From positions 186,001 through 250,000 of the forward strand of contig MEED01000012.1 of assembly GCA_001724855.1 (NCBI GenBank): DNA of 64,000 nucleotides, read 5' to 3'. Below the pieces are notes generated by a model. It saw only the letters and a list, made by a program, of their open reading frames with translations. It ran no database searches and had not been told where the DNA came from. How positions within the stretch are numbered: position 1 is the first letter of the stretch; each line of letters begins with the position of its first letter. This stretch comes from Lautropia sp. SCN 69-89. Lineage in GTDB: Bacteria > Pseudomonadota > Gammaproteobacteria > Burkholderiales > Burkholderiaceae_E. Positions 10,089-16,908 of the stretch are shown here, in pieces. Position numbers and translations under genes: made by a program.

Positions 10089-11123
10089 ATGAGTCGACCC
10101 GGAACGGTCGCCGTCTACTTCGTTGCGTCCCCGCTGCAATACCTCGCGGCGCGGCGCATCGCCGGCGAGTTCGAGCGTGGCGCGCGCCAGGTGCTCGTCT
10201 GGTACAAGCCGGGACTCGAGGGCGTGGTCGAGCCCGGCGAGTGGGATGCGTGCAGCTACATGGCGTGGCCGCGCCTGGAGCCGCTTCCGGGTGCGTTCGG
10301 TCGCCACCGCCGCCTGCGGGAGAACATTCGGCTGGTGGCGGGCCTCGTCGGCCCGTGTGAACGCTTGATCCTGCACAGCGCGGTCTACGACACCGAGGCG
10401 ATCAACTACTTCCTGCGCGCGCTGCCCATGACGTGCGGTGCGAGCGAGATGCGTGCGCGCATCCTTCCCGATGGGCTGCTCAGCATCCGCCGTTATCCGC
10501 TGTCGCCGGTCAAGCGGCTGCTGCAGTATCCGCGCAAGTTGCGGCGGCTGTTCGCGCCGGAGCTCGACTACCAGTGTTTCGGCGGCGATCGCATCGGCTC
10601 GGATGCACGGTTCTGCGATCGCATCTACGTCGTGCACGGGCTGCCGAACGAGTATCCGGCCGGCAAGGTGCAGGTGCTGCCGCCTCTCGTCGATCCGATC
10701 CGGGAGGGCGGGCCGCAATCCGGCGAGCGTCGCGCGCTGGTGATCGGACAACCGCTTGCGGCGTTTCGGCTGATGTCGCCCGCGGACGTCTCGGACGTCG
10801 CGTCGCGAATGCGGCAATGGCTCGCGAGGGAGGGATTCTCGCAGGTCGACTACAAGCCGCATCCGAAGGATTCGGCGCACGATCTTGCTCATCCCGACTA
10901 CCGGGTGATCGCGCCGGCGGGTGCGCTGGAGTCGCACATGGCGCAGACGCCGTACGACGCGGTGATCGGGGTGCGCTCCTCGTCGCTGCTGCTGGCGCGG
11001 CAGATCTATCCGGACCGCGTGCGCGTGGTCGCCTTCGGCTGGCAGCGCGTCAGGTTCAAGTCGCAGCAGGAGCGCGAGGACATGCGGCGCGCGTTCACCG
11101 CCTGCGGCGTGGAGTTCGCGTGA
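10089..11123 (+). CDS. Sialyltransferase-like glycosyltransferase (HP / SSS motif family)
   Basis: This 344-residue soluble protein resembles bacterial (poly)sialyltransferases of the GT38/GT52 type. The N-terminus FVASPLQYLAARRI is like their first Rossmann strand. An acidic-Gly site, LPDGLLSI, is at residues 127-134. The two diagnostic C-terminal motifs are present: HP within YKPHPKDS (258-259) and SSS within VIGVRSSSLLLA (297-299). These bind the CMP-sugar in characterised enzymes. It is coupled by a GTGA overlap to the O-antigen ligase gene. The ATG was preferred over an in-frame GTG nine bases upstream; neither has a strong ribosome site. No CMP-sialate synthesis gene is in the window, so the donor sugar is unproven. 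Confidence 0.68.
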   Translation: MSRPGTVAVYFVASPLQYLAARRIAGEFERGARQVLVWYKPGLEGVVEPGEWDACSYMAWPRLEPLPGAFGRHRRLRENIRLVAGLVGPCERLILHSAVYDTEAINYFLRALPMTCGASEMRARILPDGLLSIRRYPLSPVKRLLQYPRKLRRLFAPELDYQCFGGDRIGSDARFCDRIYVVHGLPNEYPAGKVQVLPPLVDPIREGGPQSGERRALVIGQPLAAFRLMSPADVSDVASRMRQWLAREGFSQVDYKPHPKDSAHDLAHPDYRVIAPAGALESHMAQTPYDAVIGVRSSSLLLARQIYPDRVRVVAFGWQRVRFKSQQEREDMRRAFTACGVEFA

Positions 11124-12376
11124 GTCTCGCACAATGGCGCGAGCGGATCCCGCTGGCCAATTCCTGGCTGCTCGCCGCGGTCTTCTTCTGCATCCCGGTG
11201 CAGGTGGCGCCGGCCTACGTGCTGTCGGCGGCGATGCTGCTGCTGTGGCTGGTCGAGGGAGACCTTCGCCGGAAACTGCACGAACTCGCGGACGAGCCAC
11301 TGGTCTGGATCGTACTGGGCTGCTACGGGGTGCTGCTGCTGTCGCTGCTGTGGAGCGACGACCGAGGCTGGGGCTGGCAGACGATGCAGCGGCACAGGTT
11401 CTTCCTGCTGTTCCCGCTCTACTTCAGCGTGGCGCGACGCGAGCACTTCGGGCGCTACGTCGGCGCCTTTCTCGCGTCCATCGCGTTGTGCGAGGCACTG
11501 GCGTTCTACAACTGGGCGAGGCTCTACCTCTGGCCCGGCCTGCCTGAGGGCATCCGGGTCGACAAGTCCCTCGAGGACACCGCACCGTTCGTCGACCGGA
11601 TCTTCTACACGCCGGCACTGGCGCTGGCCGGATACCTCGCGGGACATCGGCTGCTCTTCGATGTGATGACGCTGCGCCGGCGCCTCGTCTACGGCGCGCT
11701 GCTCGCGACGACGACGCTGAACCTGGTGATCGCGGGCGGACGCACCGGCATGGTCGGCTTCCTCGCGTTGCTCGCGCTGCTGGCGTTCCAGCGCCTCGGG
11801 CGCCGCCCGTTGGTCGCCGCGTCGGCCGCGGCGGTGCTGGTGGGCGCCGTGCTCGCGGGCGCCTATCAGGGCAGCAGCTACTTCAGGAGCCGGGCCGACG
11901 ACGCGGTCGATACGTTCCTCCACTACAGGGAGCGACCACAATACTCGGTGAGCGTGCGCCTCGTCTATGCGATGAATGCGCTGCGGATCTACGCGGCGCA
12001 TCCGCTGCTCGGCGTCGGTGTCGGCGACTACCCGAAGGAATACGAGCGGGTCAACGCGATCCATACCCCGCAGTGGGAGCCCGCCTGGAATCCGCACAAC
12101 CATTACCTGTTCGTACTCACCGCCGCCGGGATACCGGGCGGCATCGCGCTCGCACTGGTGCTCGGCTATCCGCTGCGGCGGCGCGGGCCGGCCGACGGGC
12201 GCGAACGGATCCGCCGTGCGGTGCCGGTGCTGATGATCACGATCTGCCTGTTCGAGTCGTACCTGCTGCGCTCGAACGTGAGCATGATGTACATGCTGTT
12301 CACTGCCGCACTGTGGCGCGGTGCGTCTCCCGCGGATCCCGTGCGAGCAGCAAGCCTCCGGCCGCTGCCTGCATGA
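11120..12376 (+). CDS. O-antigen ligase (WaaL)-family membrane protein
   Basis: A 418-residue polytopic protein, about ten hydrophobic segments, with the Wzy_C/WaaL-type layout: a large periplasmic loop (residues about 235-340) holding SVRLVYAMNALRIYAAHPLLGVG and NPHNHYLFVLTAAGI, where the His-Asn-x-Tyr-Leu motif (326-330) is typical of ligases that transfer polymer to lipid A-core. A polymerase (Wzy) cannot be excluded, since the two share this domain. It starts at GTG inside a GTGA overlap with the upstream glycosyltransferase, arguing for a joint role in a surface glycan. Its last 77 bases overlap the convergent flippase-like gene. Confidence 0.82.
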   Translation: MSLAQWRERIPLANSWLLAAVFFCIPVQVAPAYVLSAAMLLLWLVEGDLRRKLHELADEPLVWIVLGCYGVLLLSLLWSDDRGWGWQTMQRHRFFLLFPLYFSVARREHFGRYVGAFLASIALCEALAFYNWARLYLWPGLPEGIRVDKSLEDTAPFVDRIFYTPALALAGYLAGHRLLFDVMTLRRRLVYGALLATTTLNLVIAGGRTGMVGFLALLALLAFQRLGRRPLVAASAAAVLVGAVLAGAYQGSSYFRSRADDAVDTFLHYRERPQYSVSVRLVYAMNALRIYAAHPLLGVGVGDYPKEYERVNAIHTPQWEPAWNPHNHYLFVLTAAGIPGGIALALVLGYPLRRRGPADGRERIRRAVPVLMITICLFESYLLRSNVSMMYMLFTAALWRGASPADPVRAASLRPLPA

Positions 12377-13283
12377 GCCCGAAGACCCCGTAGAGCACCG
12401 ACGCGCCGACGGCCGGCGCGGCCGGTACGCCGAACGCGGACAGCGCAACCACGGCCGCGGCCTCGCGCGTGCCCCAGCCGCCGAAGCTCACCGGCAGCGT
12501 CGCCATCAGGAAGACGGGCACCGCCGCGGCGGCCCAGCCCCAGGCAGCCAGCTCGATGCCCAGCGCGTGGCCGCCCAGTGCGAAGGCTGCGATCGACAAC
12601 GCCTGCACCGCCAGCGATGCGACGATCTGCAGCGCGTATTGCCGCCAGGCGCCCGGCCGCCTCGCGGCGGCGACGAGCCGCGCGCGCCAGCCGCTGGCCG
12701 GCCCCTCGAGGCCACCCAGCGCCGCTCCGAGTTGGCGCAGCGCGACGATGGCCAGCGCCGGCGCCGCGAGCAGGCATGCCGCCAGCGTCGCCAGCGCGCC
12801 AGCCCCCGCCGCGCGCAGCGCTGCCGGCACCAGCGCCTGCGCCGAGGTGCCGGCAACGCCCCAGGCAGCGGCCGCCATGCCCAGCACGACCAGCATCCAT
12901 AGCCCGCTCAGCCGGTCGAGGAACACCGACAGGCCCGCTTCGAGCGCCGGCAGGCCGCGACGGTTCAGCGTCACCGCGCGATAGACGTCGCCGCCGACGA
13001 TCGCGCCGGGCAGCAGCGCGTTGATCGCGACGGCGCGGAAGTAGACGCCGGCGGCCGCCAGCGCGCCGATGCGATGACCGAGCCAGCCGGCCAGTGCCCG
13101 CCAGCGCTGGGCCGACGCGAAGTTCGACAGCGCCGAGGCCGCGAGCCCGGCGAGCAGCCAGGCAGGGTTTGCGTTCGCGACCACGTGGACGACGCGCCCC
13201 GGGTCGGCCCACCAGAGGATCGCCGCGACCAGCAGCGGCGCCGCGATGGTCCGCGCCAGGGCGGTCGCGCGCTTGCGCGTCAT
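12300..13283 (-). CDS. Flippase-like membrane protein (UPF0104 / LPG-synthase TM domain)
   Basis: This 327-residue integral membrane protein has the lysylphosphatidylglycerol-synthase transmembrane (UPF0104) domain: LLAGLAASALSNFASAQRWRAL near the start, GVYFRAVAINALLPGAIVGGDVYRA, and SVFLDRLSGLWMLV. The hydrolase/transferase half of true MprF is absent. Relatives in glycan clusters are thought to move lipid-linked substrates, but this is inference. It is read together with the GT2 gene 31 bases upstream. Its 3' end overlaps the 3' end of the O-antigen ligase gene by 77 bases on the opposite strand. Confidence 0.83.
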   Translation of the reverse strand: MTRKRATALARTIAAPLLVAAILWWADPGRVVHVVANANPAWLLAGLAASALSNFASAQRWRALAGWLGHRIGALAAAGVYFRAVAINALLPGAIVGGDVYRAVTLNRRGLPALEAGLSVFLDRLSGLWMLVVLGMAAAAWGVAGTSAQALVPAALRAAGAGALATLAACLLAAPALAIVALRQLGAALGGLEGPASGWRARLVAAARRPGAWRQYALQIVASLAVQALSIAAFALGGHALGIELAAWGWAAAAVPVFLMATLPVSFGGWGTREAAAVVALSAFGVPAAPAVGASVLYGVFGLMQAAAGGLLLARDPRETHRATVRQ

Positions 13284-13314: not shown

Positions 13315-14334
13315 TCACGGAGTGCGCCCGGCCGGCCGCTCGCCGGACCGCAGCTCGCGCACGAAGTACTGCGGCGTGCCTCCTGCCTCGTGGTAGATGC
13401 GCGTGAGCAGCTCGCCGACCAGCCCCGCGACGACCAGCTGCACGCCCATCAGCAGCAGCATCACGCCGGCCAGCAGCAGCGGACGGCCGCCGATGTCCTC
13501 GCCCCCCAGCTTCAGCACCAGCAGCCAGGCGAGGATCAGCGCGCCCGGCGCGGCGAGCCACAGGCCGAGAGCGCCGAATGCGTGCAGCGGGCGCTGGCGG
13601 TAGCGCATGAAGAAGACGATCAGCACGAGGTCGAGAATCACCCGGAAGGTGCGGTCGATGCCGTACTTCGACACGCCCCGGGTGCGGGCATGATGGCGCA
13701 CCGGCATCTCGGCGATGCGTGCGCCGGCGTCGCGCGCGAGCGACGGAATGAAGCGATGCAATTCGCCATAGAGCCGGATCCGGTCGATGATCTCGCGCCG
13801 GTAGGCCTTGAGCGCGCAGCCGTAGTCGTGCAGGTGCACGCCGGTGCTGCGCGAGATCAGCCGGTTGGCGATCGCCGACGGCAGCCTGCGCGAAAGCGCC
13901 TTGTCCTGGCGCTGCTGGCGCCAGCCGGAGATCATGTCGATGCCGTCGTCGCGGTCGAGGCGCTCGATCATCGCCGGGATGTCGAGCGGGTCGTTCTGCA
14001 GGTCCGCGTCGAGCGTCACGACGTAGCGCCCGCGCACGCGGTCGAAGCCTGCCTGCAGCGCGCTCGATTGGCCATAATTGCGCGCCAGCAGCACGGGCCG
14101 CAGCCAGGGGTGGTCGGCCGCGAGCCGGGCGAGCGTCGCCGCGCTGTCGTCGCCCGAGCCGTCGTCGACGGCGATCAGTTCGAAGGCGCGACCGGTCGGG
14201 CGCATCGCCTGCTCGATGCGCTCGACCAGTTCGGGCAGGTTGTCGACCTCGTTGTAGACGGGGACGACAATGCTGACATCCGGGTCGGTGGTGGCGTGCA
14301 CGACGGCGGCTTCGGATGCGAGGGAATCGGGCAT
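13315..14334 (-). CDS. GT2 glycosyltransferase of the DPM1/ArnC/GtrB type
   Basis: A 339-residue polyisoprenyl-phosphate glycosyltransferase. The catalytic domain shows VSIVVPVYNEVDNLPELV (residues 20-37), VDDGSGDD (56-63) and the metal-binding DADLQNDP (109-116). Residues 255-315 contain two membrane spans that dock the enzyme to the inner membrane. Such enzymes load a sugar onto undecaprenyl or similar phosphate, supplying GT39/GT-C transferases like the divergently encoded neighbour; the pair probably works together. Start chosen at MPDSLASEAA; an upstream in-frame ATG would run into the divergent gene. Confidence 0.87.
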   Translation of the reverse strand: MPDSLASEAAVVHATTDPDVSIVVPVYNEVDNLPELVERIEQAMRPTGRAFELIAVDDGSGDDSAATLARLAADHPWLRPVLLARNYGQSSALQAGFDRVRGRYVVTLDADLQNDPLDIPAMIERLDRDDGIDMISGWRQQRQDKALSRRLPSAIANRLISRSTGVHLHDYGCALKAYRREIIDRIRLYGELHRFIPSLARDAGARIAEMPVRHHARTRGVSKYGIDRTFRVILDLVLIVFFMRYRQRPLHAFGALGLWLAAPGALILAWLLVLKLGGEDIGGRPLLLAGVMLLLMGVQLVVAGLVGELLTRIYHEAGGTPQYFVRELRSGERPAGRTP

Positions 14335-14392
14335 GGGGGGGCTCGGCGCGATGCGGGCAATGTTAACTGATGACTGATCGGGTTTCGCTTCG

Positions 14393-15880
14393 ATGAGCGC
14401 CGGCGCCACGACGACGGCCGCCACGGCTGCGCCGTCGGGTCGGCATCTGCTGTTGCTGATGCTGCTGTACTTCGGCGCGCACCTGTTGTCGCGGGTGCTG
14501 GTCTCCGGCGCGCTCGAGCTCGACGAGGCCGAGCAGGCGCTGTGGACTCAGCGGCTGGCGGCCGGCTACGGTGCGCAACCCCCGCTCTACACCTGGCTGC
14601 AGTGGGCCGTGTTCCAGCTGGCCGGCGTCTCGGTGTTCTCGCTGGCGCTGCTGAAGAACGTCCTGATCGCGCTCACCTACCTGTTCATCTACCTCGCGGC
14701 GCTTCGGGCGATGCCTGCGCGGCTGGCACTGCTCGCATCGGCCAGCATGCTGCTGATCCCGCACATCGGCTGGGAGTCACACCGCGACCTCACCCATTCG
14801 GTGCTGGTGACGACGATGGCGAGCGCGACGATTCTCGTCGTGATGCGCCTCGTCGAACGACCCCGCGCGGCGCTCTACCTGCTGCTCGGGCTCGTCGCCG
14901 GGCTGGGCATCCTGTCCAAGTACAGCTACGCGCTGTTCTTCGCGGCGCTCGCGCTGGCGCTGCTCGCCAGTCCGCAGGGGCGCAAGGTCGCGCGCAGCCC
15001 GTGGATCCTCGCAAGCGCGCTGGTGGCGCTGGCCGTCGTCGCGCCGCACGCGTGGTGGCTGCTCGACCACTGGCAGATGGCCAGCGAGCGAACGCTGGCG
15101 AAAATGGAGGCCCGGCCCGGGGCGGTCGTCGGCGCGCTGAGCGGGCTCGGCAGTCTCGCCGAGGCGATCGCCGGCACGCTGGTCGTGCTGGTCGTCGTGT
15201 GGGCGGCCGTGTTCGGCCGCGCTGCGTGGCGCGCGCGCAGCGCCGGCCCGCGCAGCGCGCATTGCGTCCTCTGGCTGCGCTACCTCGCGGCGCTCGCGGC
15301 GCTGCTGGCGGCGATGGTGGTGCTGGGCGGGGTCGGCAACGTGAAGGGGCGCTGGCTGCAGCCGCTGCTGTGCATGGCGCCGCTGATCTGGTTCGGCTGC
15401 CGCGCCGACCTCGACGGGCATCCGCGTCTTCGCGCCTATGGCCGCGTGCTGGTCGGCTTCGCGCTCGTCTTCCTGACGCTGCTCACGCTGCGGCCGTTCT
15501 ACGACGGCTGGCGCGGCCGTCCGGGCGACCTGAACCAGCCCGCGGCGACGCTCGCGCGGGCGCTCGAGGCGCAGGGTTACGACGGCCGCGGCACCATCGT
15601 CGCGTCCGATCGCGTGATGGCCGGCGTGCTCAGGACGCGCTTCACTCACGCGCGCGTCGAAACCTGGGCCGCCGGCGCGCCGCCACTGCGGCTCGTCGAG
15701 GGCGAGGCGCTGCTGCTGATCGCCGGCGCCGGTCACGAAGCCTGGCTGCGCGAGCGCACGGCGGCGCTCGGCGTCGGCGCACACGCCGGGGTCGCCGGCG
15801 AACTCATGCTGCCGTTCACCTGGTCACGCCCGGGGCAACCCGAGGCGAAATACCGCTTCGTGCTCGTGCGTCGCCGATGA
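14393..15880 (+). CDS. GT39/PMT-type glycosyltransferase (ArnT-like)
   Basis: A 495-residue integral membrane GT-C glycosyltransferase with about 11-12 hydrophobic segments. The first periplasmic loop contains LELDEAEQALWTQRL and YGAQPPLYTWLQWAVF, the acidic and aromatic signature of the ArnT/PMT group, which takes a sugar from a polyprenyl-phosphate carrier. The C-terminal 150 residues form a periplasmic domain. The acceptor may be lipid A, core or another envelope molecule. It is divergent from the GT2 gene (58 bases apart), the likely supplier of its lipid-linked donor, and meets waaC tail-to-tail with only 5 bases between. Confidence 0.87.
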   Translation: MSAGATTTAATAAPSGRHLLLLMLLYFGAHLLSRVLVSGALELDEAEQALWTQRLAAGYGAQPPLYTWLQWAVFQLAGVSVFSLALLKNVLIALTYLFIYLAALRAMPARLALLASASMLLIPHIGWESHRDLTHSVLVTTMASATILVVMRLVERPRAALYLLLGLVAGLGILSKYSYALFFAALALALLASPQGRKVARSPWILASALVALAVVAPHAWWLLDHWQMASERTLAKMEARPGAVVGALSGLGSLAEAIAGTLVVLVVVWAAVFGRAAWRARSAGPRSAHCVLWLRYLAALAALLAAMVVLGGVGNVKGRWLQPLLCMAPLIWFGCRADLDGHPRLRAYGRVLVGFALVFLTLLTLRPFYDGWRGRPGDLNQPAATLARALEAQGYDGRGTIVASDRVMAGVLRTRFTHARVETWAAGAPPLRLVEGEALLLIAGAGHEAWLRERTAALGVGAHAGVAGELMLPFTWSRPGQPEAKYRFVLVRRR

Positions 15881-15885
15881 ACCGA

Positions 15886-16908
15886 TCAGCCGAGCGCGCC
15901 CAGCTGCTCGAGCGCCGACCACACCTCGTCGACCTCGGGCATCGCGCCGGCGTCCCCGAACGCCGCCATCTGCGACAGCCAGAACGGCTCGGCCCGAAAC
16001 CTCGGCCAGCGCGGCGTGTCGGGGACCATGAACACCAGCGGGCGTTCGAAGGCCGCGGCCAGGTGCGTGAGGCCGGTGTCCAGGCCGACGACCGCGCGCG
16101 CATGCGCGAGCAGCGCGGCGCACTGTGTGAGGCTCAGCCGCTGCGGCACGCGCGCGCGCGGCAGTCCGGCGGCGATCGTCTCTGCGCGCGCGCGCTCGGC
16201 ATCGTTGCCCCAGGGCAGCACGAGGTTGCGGCCGGCCGCGTCGAGCCGCTGCGCGAGGGCACGCCAGCGCCCGGCCGGCCACTGCTTCTCGGGACGCGCG
16301 GTCATGTGCAGCAGCACGATCGACCCCGGCGCGATCGCTCCGCCCGGCATCTGCGCGAGGCTGGCAACCGGCGGCGGTGCGAGCGCGAAGCGCGGCAGTC
16401 CTTCGATGCGATAGCCGAGCGCCTGCGCGGCGAGCGAGCGCAGCGCGCGGATCGCGTGCTGCTTCTGGTCGACGCGAAAGCGTCGTTGGTAGAGGAGCGC
16501 CGCCAGCGGCTCGCGCGCGCTCGCGCGGTCGAAGCCGGCGCGTGGGCCGCGGCCCTGCAGCGCCAGGAACGCGCTCTTGAGCAGGCCTTGAAGGTCGAGG
16601 ATCAGGTCGTAGCGACGGGCGCGAAAGCCCGCGCGAAAGCGCGACCATTCGGTCCGCGTAGTCGCCGACAGCGGCGCCTTTCGCCAGCGACGCATCGCCA
16701 CGCGGTGGATCGTGGCGACGCCGGGGTGCAGCGCCGGAAGCTCGGCGAACGAATCCTCGACCACCCAGTCGATCCGCGCCGCGGGGAAAGCCGAGAGGAT
16801 GTCGGTGACCACCGGCAGCGCGTGGATCACGTCGCCGAGCGAGCTGGTCTTGACCAGCGCCACTTCGAGCGCCGCGGGGGAGAGGCCGACCGTGTCCGGG
16901 CTCGCCAT
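15886..16908 (-). CDS. waaC: Lipopolysaccharide heptosyltransferase I WaaC
   Basis: WaaC adds the first L-glycero-D-manno-heptose to Kdo2-lipid A (GT9 family, inner leaflet). The 340-residue protein shows the GT9 N-terminus VKTSSLGDVIHALPVVTDI with IDWVVEDSF, a central LHMTARPEKQWPAGRW, and the donor-site VGLDTGLTHLAAAFERPLVFMV with the DTGLTH motif of the family. It starts 2 bases after the stop of the FAD-dependent oxidoreductase gene and is therefore probably co-transcribed with it, an unusual partner for an LPS gene. Confidence 0.93.
   Translation of the reverse strand: MASPDTVGLSPAALEVALVKTSSLGDVIHALPVVTDILSAFPAARIDWVVEDSFAELPALHPGVATIHRVAMRRWRKAPLSATTRTEWSRFRAGFRARRYDLILDLQGLLKSAFLALQGRGPRAGFDRASAREPLAALLYQRRFRVDQKQHAIRALRSLAAQALGYRIEGLPRFALAPPPVASLAQMPGGAIAPGSIVLLHMTARPEKQWPAGRWRALAQRLDAAGRNLVLPWGNDAERARAETIAAGLPRARVPQRLSLTQCAALLAHARAVVGLDTGLTHLAAAFERPLVFMVPDTPRWPRFRAEPFWLSQMAAFGDAGAMPEVDEVWSALEQLGALG

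Follow-up and report, generated by a model that had tools for sequence, protein, structure and literature searches.

We analysed a 64,000-nucleotide stretch of the genome of Lautropia sp. SCN 69-89 (C12:186001-250000, i.e. contig MEED01000012.1, of a 3.8-Mb assembly that is 95.6% complete; hereafter, the window, in whose numbering positions are given), with a focus on two overlapping genes that encode a glycosyltransferase (GT), P0001, and a Wzy_C-type ligase, P0002. With a probability that we put at roughly 55%, P0001 is a GT-B enzyme of the GT38-like clan that transfers 3-deoxy-D-manno-oct-2-ulosonic acid (Kdo) from its cytidine monophosphate (CMP) conjugate, with inversion, onto the lipopolysaccharide (LPS) core, while a paralogue handles pseudaminic acid (Pse). 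At somewhat short of even odds, we further propose that one GT38-like family comprises two donor classes, with copies that have Ser132 and lie in LPS-core operons using Kdo, and copies that have Asn132 and lie in clusters of Pse or legionaminic acid (Leg) genes using nonulosonates, such that P0001 would be a Kdo transferase on a bacterial GT-B sialyltransferase scaffold, with donor class set largely by residues beside the catalytic loop. The features of P0001 on which the argument turns are as follows (rows are those of the family set described below).

10089..11123, + strand: GT38-like glycosyltransferase P0001, predicted CMP-Kdo transferase; ATG start, 344 residues (from PF07388, the AlphaFold (AF2) model and the 53-row tree)
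10467..10475, + strand: PDG at residues 127-129, taken to correspond to the D/E-D/E-G catalytic-base motif; found in 53 of 53 family rows
10482..10484, + strand: Ser132, which separates window-type copies (Ser) from nonulosonate-cluster copies (Asn) by alignment counts
10854..10865, + strand: KPHP, residues 256-259, CMP-binding [KR]xHP motif; 53 of 53 family rows
10977..10985, + strand: SSS, residues 297-299, S-S/T element; S297 invariant in 17- and 18-row alignments

Profile and fold comparisons place P0001 with the GT38 polysialyltransferases. P0001 matches PF07388 (A-2_8-polyST), the only Pfam family that it matches, at 26.4 bits (cut-off, 23.3 bits) over residues 213-310 only, corresponding to the C-terminal half, which holds HP and SSS; on the relative L147, the same profile scores 55.7 bits and covers residues 10-311, nearly the whole profile. 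No NCBIfam name is obtained for P0001, a PDB sequence search with P0001 gives no match at E 10, and a PDB search with profile A2 gives four chance-level matches (the best at E 0.078), none of which is named as a glycosyltransferase. The AF2 model of P0001 has a mean predicted local distance difference test score (pLDDT) of 92 (17-row alignment). In a second look at this model with VIA-align, the GT38 polysialyltransferase 5wc6 ranks first (Z 17.1, 306 residues aligned, root-mean-square deviation (rmsd) 5.7) and the other GT38 entry, 5wcn, next (Z 16.8), with both GT38 entries at rmsd 5.7-5.8 and 306-313 residues aligned; GT80 sialyltransferases range from Z 15.3 at best to about 13, and the remaining GT-B enzymes do not exceed Z 13.2. 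The ranking is the same for the model of L016, a relative located in a Pse cluster (5wc6/5wcn at Z 16.5/16.2, then 14.5 and 12.1). Entries of GT99, GT107, GT140 and GT30 are absent from the best 50 structure rows, an absence that is no evidence that they differ, and a Foldseek search against viral proteins yields only general glycosyltransferases and other weak matches. By the PF07388 cut-off and by closest GT-B fold, P0001 is GT38-like. The initial annotation had read the protein from sequence as sialyl- or polysialyltransferase-like and had named structure prediction as the check; the profile match and the ranking, with GT38 rather than another GT family first, agree with it.

The short motifs named in the initial annotation (HP at 258-259, SSS at 297-299 and an acidic-Gly site) are present at those positions, the last being P127-D128-G129. 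In the 17- and 18-row alignments, D128, G129, K256, H258, P259 and S297 do not vary, and the occurrence of PDG and [KR]xHP in all family rows argues that these motifs do not occur by chance. Neither of the two alternative catalytic signatures is conserved: [DE][DE]G occurs in at most 2 of 53 rows at any column, and QxxxD, the signature of retaining Kdo transferases, in at most 9 of 53. According to the available text of PMC5517516, the GT38 base is E153 of D/E-D/E-G, and H291 of HP is presumed to assist departure of the leaving group; [KR]xHP is given as a CMP-binding motif in the accessible part of PMC12887879, and excerpts of both sources describe HP as common to sialyl- and Kdo transferases. 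The HP motif thus cannot decide the donor, since both kinds of enzyme have it; the fold match, the motifs and the lack of a conserved QxxxD together lead us to regard P0001 as probably an inverting CMP-ulosonate transferase in which D128 acts as the base.

The family separates into two classes of copies. Relatives were collected from 16 loci and from profile searches of the order (a draw of 399 genomes, 6 with a copy), the family (74 genomes, 10 with a copy) and family f20, to which Parazoarcus belongs (249 genomes, 27 with a copy), in which the best 5 to 29 candidates per genome were scored; after nine duplicate loci were dropped, and with L149, a fragment with an internal stop in G416, giving no row, the tree and family set has 53 rows. 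Neighbourhoods were judged on stretches of up to 9 kb per side. The window-type group comprises 38 of the 53 rows, the window included. Within those stretches, no window-type locus has a nonulosonate gene, bar two weak LegB matches at L123 (26-28% identity), which we read as guanosine diphosphate (GDP)-sugar enzymes and did not count. A heptosyltransferase is present in 38/38 window-type loci, 34/38 have a Wzy_C-type ligase downstream in the same orientation, and an MsbA-like exporter is present in 19/38; the four loci without a following ligase are L015 (ligase on the other strand), L017 (stretch stops shortly afterwards), and the loci L085 and L091 (no ligase). The nonulosonate-type group comprises 13 rows, 12 of them beside Pse genes (L012, L016, L024, L083, L084, L087, L088 and L146) or Leg genes (L013, L014, L147 and L148). 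The thirteenth, L124, at a contig end, shows no nonulosonate gene because its stretch ends 199 bases past the gene, and was placed in the group by its clade. Two Armatimonadota rows stand apart from both groups. In the midpoint-rooted tree, the nonulosonate-type rows without L147 and L148, plus the Armatimonadota rows, form one branch (99/100), and L147 and L148 cluster with the ligase-type loci L015 and L017 on long branches.

The two classes also coexist within genomes: in the window's own genus, six of nine genomes with a window-type copy, the window genome included, have a second copy. The second copy lies in a Leg cluster in G370 (L014/L094) and in a Pse cluster in G000, G464, G469, G471 and G473; the sugar cassette beside the second-copy transferase thus differs within one genus. 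Nonulosonate-type copies follow a heptosyltransferase and a GT4 gene at L013 and L016 and, in G710 (L146), lie with Pse genes between MsbA and a heptosyltransferase. At two loci (L146:5858-6886 and L124:5519-6562), a gene of 342-347 residues with no Pfam match is found just after MsbA and shortly before the nonulosonate-type copy. The neighbours of the Armatimonadota copies (L018 and L019) look unrelated to glycans by eye (electron-transfer flavoprotein and transporter genes), and the genomes have NeuB.

A single alignment column, residue 132, three residues after PDG, is fixed differently between the window-type and nonulosonate-type groups. Specifically, residue 132 is Ser in 38/38 window-type rows and Asn in 12/12 rows that adjoin nonulosonate genes, as well as in L124 and both Armatimonadota rows. 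A second contrast is provided by L015 and L017 (Ser, no NeuB match) and L147 and L148 (Asn, Leg cluster). As a control, we took from a FastTree tree every clade of at least four rows that does not contain the four f17 rows, and joined each clade to L147 and L148; of the resulting 26 groups, two give one fixed-different column, namely the nonulosonate-type plus Armatimonadota clade (residue 132) and a trivial 49-row group. With the Armatimonadota rows left on the Ser side, no such column results, because both carry Asn.

The donor was approached by elimination in 32 genomes with window-type copies only: 25 from f20 and G467, G468, G470 and G054, all profile-searched, plus G003, G011 and G013, reached through their loci. 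In 17 of the 32 (G498, G507, G561, G571, G581, G599, G606, G634, G643, G653, G657, G694, G705, G467, G468, G470 and G011), there is a single match to PF02348 (cytidylyltransferase), and it is KdsB-like. NCBIfam names it kdsB in all four genomes checked (G643 = G008, G470 = G007, G467 = G005, and G011), with G643 and G008, the isolate Parazoarcus communis SWub3, sharing an identical contig and coordinates. Among the other 15, fourteen have further PF02348 matches and one, G003, has none and is taken for incomplete; a match of 175 bits or more is present in 31/32. Thirteen of the 17 single-synthetase genomes, nine of these 13 at least 95% complete and one of these nine (G498) a single contig, also lack a match to PF03102 (NeuB); the four with NeuB are G599, G606 and G657, with a weaker type of match only, and G634, with a stronger match also. 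Since 13 of 32 genomes have neither NeuB nor a second PF02348 match, the window-type enzyme seems not to need a nonulosonate.

Genomes with nonulosonate-type copies present a different picture, with NeuB in 14 of 15, the two Armatimonadota included; the exception, G471, has no NeuB scored, yet its contig ends in pseB and a pseC-like end (L083). A Fisher test of 14/15 against 16/32 gives p 0.004, on which we do not lean, because the genomes are related. Within f20, the link is weak: NeuB is present in 17/27 genomes positive for the glycosyltransferase versus 95/222 negative genomes, two of the 17 (G519 and G710) carry a nonulosonate-type copy only, and some f20 NeuB matches are to proteins that score less well (E about 1e-34 to 1e-45) and might have a function other than nonulosonate synthesis.

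The window genome, by gene content, is predicted to make both CMP-Kdo and CMP-Pse. The gene kdsB (named by NCBIfam) is on contig C21. Contig C42 carries pseI, a pseG-pseH fusion, pseF, pseC and pseB, whose products exceed NCBIfam cut-offs except for the PseH part (58.1 bits vs 93.1), and also carries waaA; adjoining pseB is a P0001 paralogue, 53% identical, that matches PF07388 at 40.4 bits. The fused PseG and PseH-like domains (L024:1-1521) span 506 residues, and frames alike in length and similarity are present at L016, L084, L087 and L088. Also adjoining the paralogue is a 317-residue frame for a Capsule_synth (KpsS-like) protein (L024:5417-6370), a candidate second Pse transferase; Capsule_synth proteins lie beside nonulosonate-type copies at L083, L087 (463 residues), L088 and L124 as well. 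Sialic acid proper was considered as donor and set aside as the first choice: the only NeuB-family protein of the genome scores as PseI, the cytidylyltransferase beside it as PseF, and the remaining two cytidylyltransferase matches are kdsB and a weak one whose neighbourhood, inspected by eye, suggests IspD.

These data bear on the donors listed in the initial annotation, namely sialic acid, another CMP-linked nonulosonate, or Kdo. Kdo is favoured, because orthologues recur in genomes with a KdsB-like protein as the only synthetase found and P0001 has Ser132, not Asn; sialic acid is without support. The search of the remaining genome for CMP-nonulosonate genes that the annotation called for finds pseB, pseC, pseF, pseG-pseH and pseI on another contig, so a CMP-sugar pathway besides that for Kdo, the absence of which it had named as grounds for refutation, is present; yet the Pse cluster has a paralogue of its own, and the original interpretation is partly supported.

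Several observations weigh against assigning Kdo to P0001. As to enzyme class, the Pfam score of P0001 is low, and its orthologue L085 falls under the PF07388 cut-off (20.7 vs 23.3); Foldseek E-value order places general GT-B enzymes first, with no sialyltransferase among the best 50; and the P-D-G of the family lacks the first acidic residue of D/E-D/E-G. As to residue 132, five other columns share no residue between the groups (e.g. 296: R/N vs C/H/Y), and the Ser/Asn split rests on few events, being one main split plus one long-branch contrast. As to the donor, 16 of the 32 genomes with window-type copies only do have NeuB, such that a nonulosonate could serve as donor in these, and genes for CMP-Pse are present in the window genome, too. 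The genome searches scored a limited number of candidates each, the search for second copies did not cover G003, G011 and G013, and failure to find a gene in metagenome bins carries little weight, as the example of G471 illustrates.

The foremost alternative, which we consider unlikely although it fares best among the rivals, is that P0001 uses CMP-Pse from the C42 cluster, with two paralogues placing Pse on two acceptors. PseB, PseC, PseF, PseG and PseI of the genome exceed NCBIfam cut-offs (a PseH-like domain does not), the 53% identical paralogue lies beside pseB, and second copies are frequent in the genus (6/9, as above). Set against this, the orthologues L011, L010 and L008 (66, 69 and 80% identity) are in genomes whose lone PF02348 match is named kdsB, S132 and R296 of P0001 are unlike every copy classed as nonulosonate-type, and the second copy of G370 is in a Leg, not a Pse, cluster, while its window-type copy is 88% identical to P0001. 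Less probable still is a promiscuous ulosonic-acid transferase that takes any CMP-ulosonate that the cell makes. Its operon place is alike in NeuB-positive and NeuB-negative genomes, and a Maf glycosyltransferase is reported, in the available text of PMC11339370, to show donor promiscuity that includes Kdo; however, nonulosonate clusters keep separate Asn132 copies in the same genomes, which would be needless for a promiscuous enzyme.

The acceptor predicted for a Kdo-transferring P0001, the LPS core, is suggested by the surroundings of the gene, which comprise the following.

11120..11123, + strand: GTGA, stop/start codon overlap of P0001 and P0002 (sequence)
11120..12376, + strand: Wzy_C family O-antigen (WaaL-type) ligase P0002; GTG start, 418 residues (PF04932, 68.1 bits)
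12300..13283, − strand: LPG_synthase_TM (flippase-like) membrane protein (PF03706, 113.6 bits)
13315..14424, − strand: GT2 glycosyltransferase, start codon uncertain (PF00535, 104.2 bits)
14393..15880, + strand: PMT_2 (GT39-like) membrane glycosyltransferase (PF13231, 88.4 bits)
15886..16908, − strand: LPS heptosyltransferase I, waaC (TIGR02193, 347.3 bits; cut-off, 185.3)

The first two reading frames and their GTGA overlap are as initially annotated, and profile matches agree with the GT2, GT39, flippase-like and waaC genes listed there; a catalase gene forms the upstream flank. A long frame overlaps P0001 in antisense, and the existence of full-length relatives (39-94% identity) argues that the P0001 frame is the real gene. 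The absence of neuB and of a CMP-sugar synthetase from the window, also claimed initially, holds in PF03102 and PF02348 profile searches (neuC was not searched for as such), with all matches of the genome on contigs other than the window's. The 4-base overlap of glycosyltransferase and ligase is shared by 13 of the 38 window-type loci (the window being one of them), where the ligase start is taken as the alignment start. P0002 has both the Wzy_C domain and the LPS-core neighbourhood of a WaaL O-antigen ligase and is the sole PF04932 (Wzy_C) match found in the window genome, in line with the proposal of a WaaL-type ligase coupled to the transferase. The NCBIfam RfaL model gives 14.1 bits (cut-off, 277), and P0002 stays below the cut-off of every NCBIfam model. 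This last result, and the fact that WaaL, Wzy and PglL cannot be told apart by the Wzy_C domain alone, would fit a lipid- or protein-linked glycan rather than LPS core, with P0002 an O-oligosaccharyltransferase or polymerase. We regard this as improbable, to about the same degree as donor promiscuity or slightly more so, given the heptosyltransferase within 9 kb of every window-type copy, the MsbA-like exporter at half of these loci, and the lack of a second Wzy_C match in the genome.

Short genes resembling GT29 sialyltransferases follow the ligase at two loci (L011:10326-10931 and L086:11076-11699; PF00777, 42.1 and 40.7 bits), and genes labelled GT29 by similarity are also present at L122, L125, L129 and L133. 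Such genes lie in the LPS-core operon of genomes with a single PF02348 match, e.g. G498, G581 and G643; the bacterial GT29-like gene is possibly a second Kdo transferase.

Very improbable is a GT-B enzyme with an ordinary sugar donor activated by uridine, thymidine or adenosine diphosphate (UDP, dTDP or ADP) that merely resembles sialyltransferases: UDP- and dTDP-sugar enzymes do come first in Foldseek E-value order and many GT-B folds match at Z 12-13, but GT38 stands about 4 Z ahead of these and the best GT80 about 2 (with lower GT80 rows overlapping), [KR]xHP is present in every family row, and 12 of 13 nonulosonate-type copies adjoin Pse or Leg genes.

The mechanism that would follow if P0001 is a CMP-Kdo transferase, including donor, acceptor, linkage and stereochemistry, residue roles and cellular side, is one that we infer; the gene order, the family, the fold match, the motifs, the distribution and the split at residue 132 are observed. 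Kdo would be transferred from CMP-beta-Kdo with inversion, giving an alpha-Kdo product, onto an LPS-core sugar at the cytoplasmic face of the membrane. D128 of PDG would activate the acceptor, K256 and H258 would hold CMP, and S297 and S298 would hold the phosphate. The core would be exported by the MsbA route after Kdo addition, and the coupled Wzy_C ligase would then attach O-antigen. The C42 paralogue would perform the equivalent job with CMP-Pse, and nonulosonate-type copies generally would perform the equivalent transfer with Pse or Leg.

The Pfam name of the profile, polysialyltransferase, implies sialylation in bacteria of which many are seemingly unable to make sialic acids. If the Kdo assignment is true, the polysialyltransferase label is mistaken for every member of the window-type branch, an unassigned Kdo step of LPS-core synthesis gains a gene in this genus and in f20, and the paralogue pair in one genome offers a clean test of the choice between eight- and nine-carbon acidic sugars. 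The assignment bears also on the search for makers of sialic-acid-like sugars in sludge aggregates, a subject of PMC8053191 in its available part. Among the titles and abstract beginnings searched, whose coverage left out most subscription journals, none describes GT38-like Kdo transfer in LPS-core operons.

Comparison with known systems places P0001 nearest the GT38 polysialyltransferases (Mannheimia MhPST, 5wc6/5wcn; PF07388), which make alpha-2,8-polysialic acid from CMP-Neu5Ac and with which it shares the GT-B fold and the [KR]xHP, acidic-Gly and S-S/T elements. P0001 differs from these in having only 11-12% identity, in having P-D-G instead of D/E-D/E-G, in its setting in LPS-core operons, GT38 enzymes being capsule makers (PMC5517516), and in belonging to a family many of whose carriers have no sialic-acid pathway findable by these searches. 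The GT52 and GT80 sialyltransferases (Neisseria NST and Pasteurella PmST1) share the GT-B fold and give lower Z than GT38; the GT52 entry 2yk7 (NST, named a lipooligosaccharide (LOS)-specific sialyltransferase) matches the relative L016 with Z 11.3 (212 residues aligned). WaaA/KdtA (GT30), the lipid IVA Kdo transferase, is inverting and transfers Kdo from CMP-Kdo to LPS, as predicted for P0001, but belongs to a different family, and the window genome has its own waaA on C42. The retaining Kdo transferases GT99 (WbbB), GT107 (KpsC) and GT140 (KrkA) share the HP motif and the donor predicted for P0001; they have a QxxxD nucleophile motif, which is not conserved in the P0001 family, and form a beta-Kdo product (PMC12887879, available part). 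The same source, within that part, describes GT118 KpsS1, which uses Pse, as predicted for the C42 paralogue, as KpsC-related, retaining and of another clan; the Capsule_synth protein beside that paralogue may be the nearer KpsS1 relative. A parallel for a Kdo transferase on a sialyltransferase scaffold is the plant GT29 enzyme RCKT1, a sialyltransferase-family protein that, in the accessible text of PMC11288761, is proposed to be an inverting CMP-beta-Kdo transferase where sialic acid is scarce or absent and that differs from P0001 in its modified GT-A fold and plant pectin acceptor.

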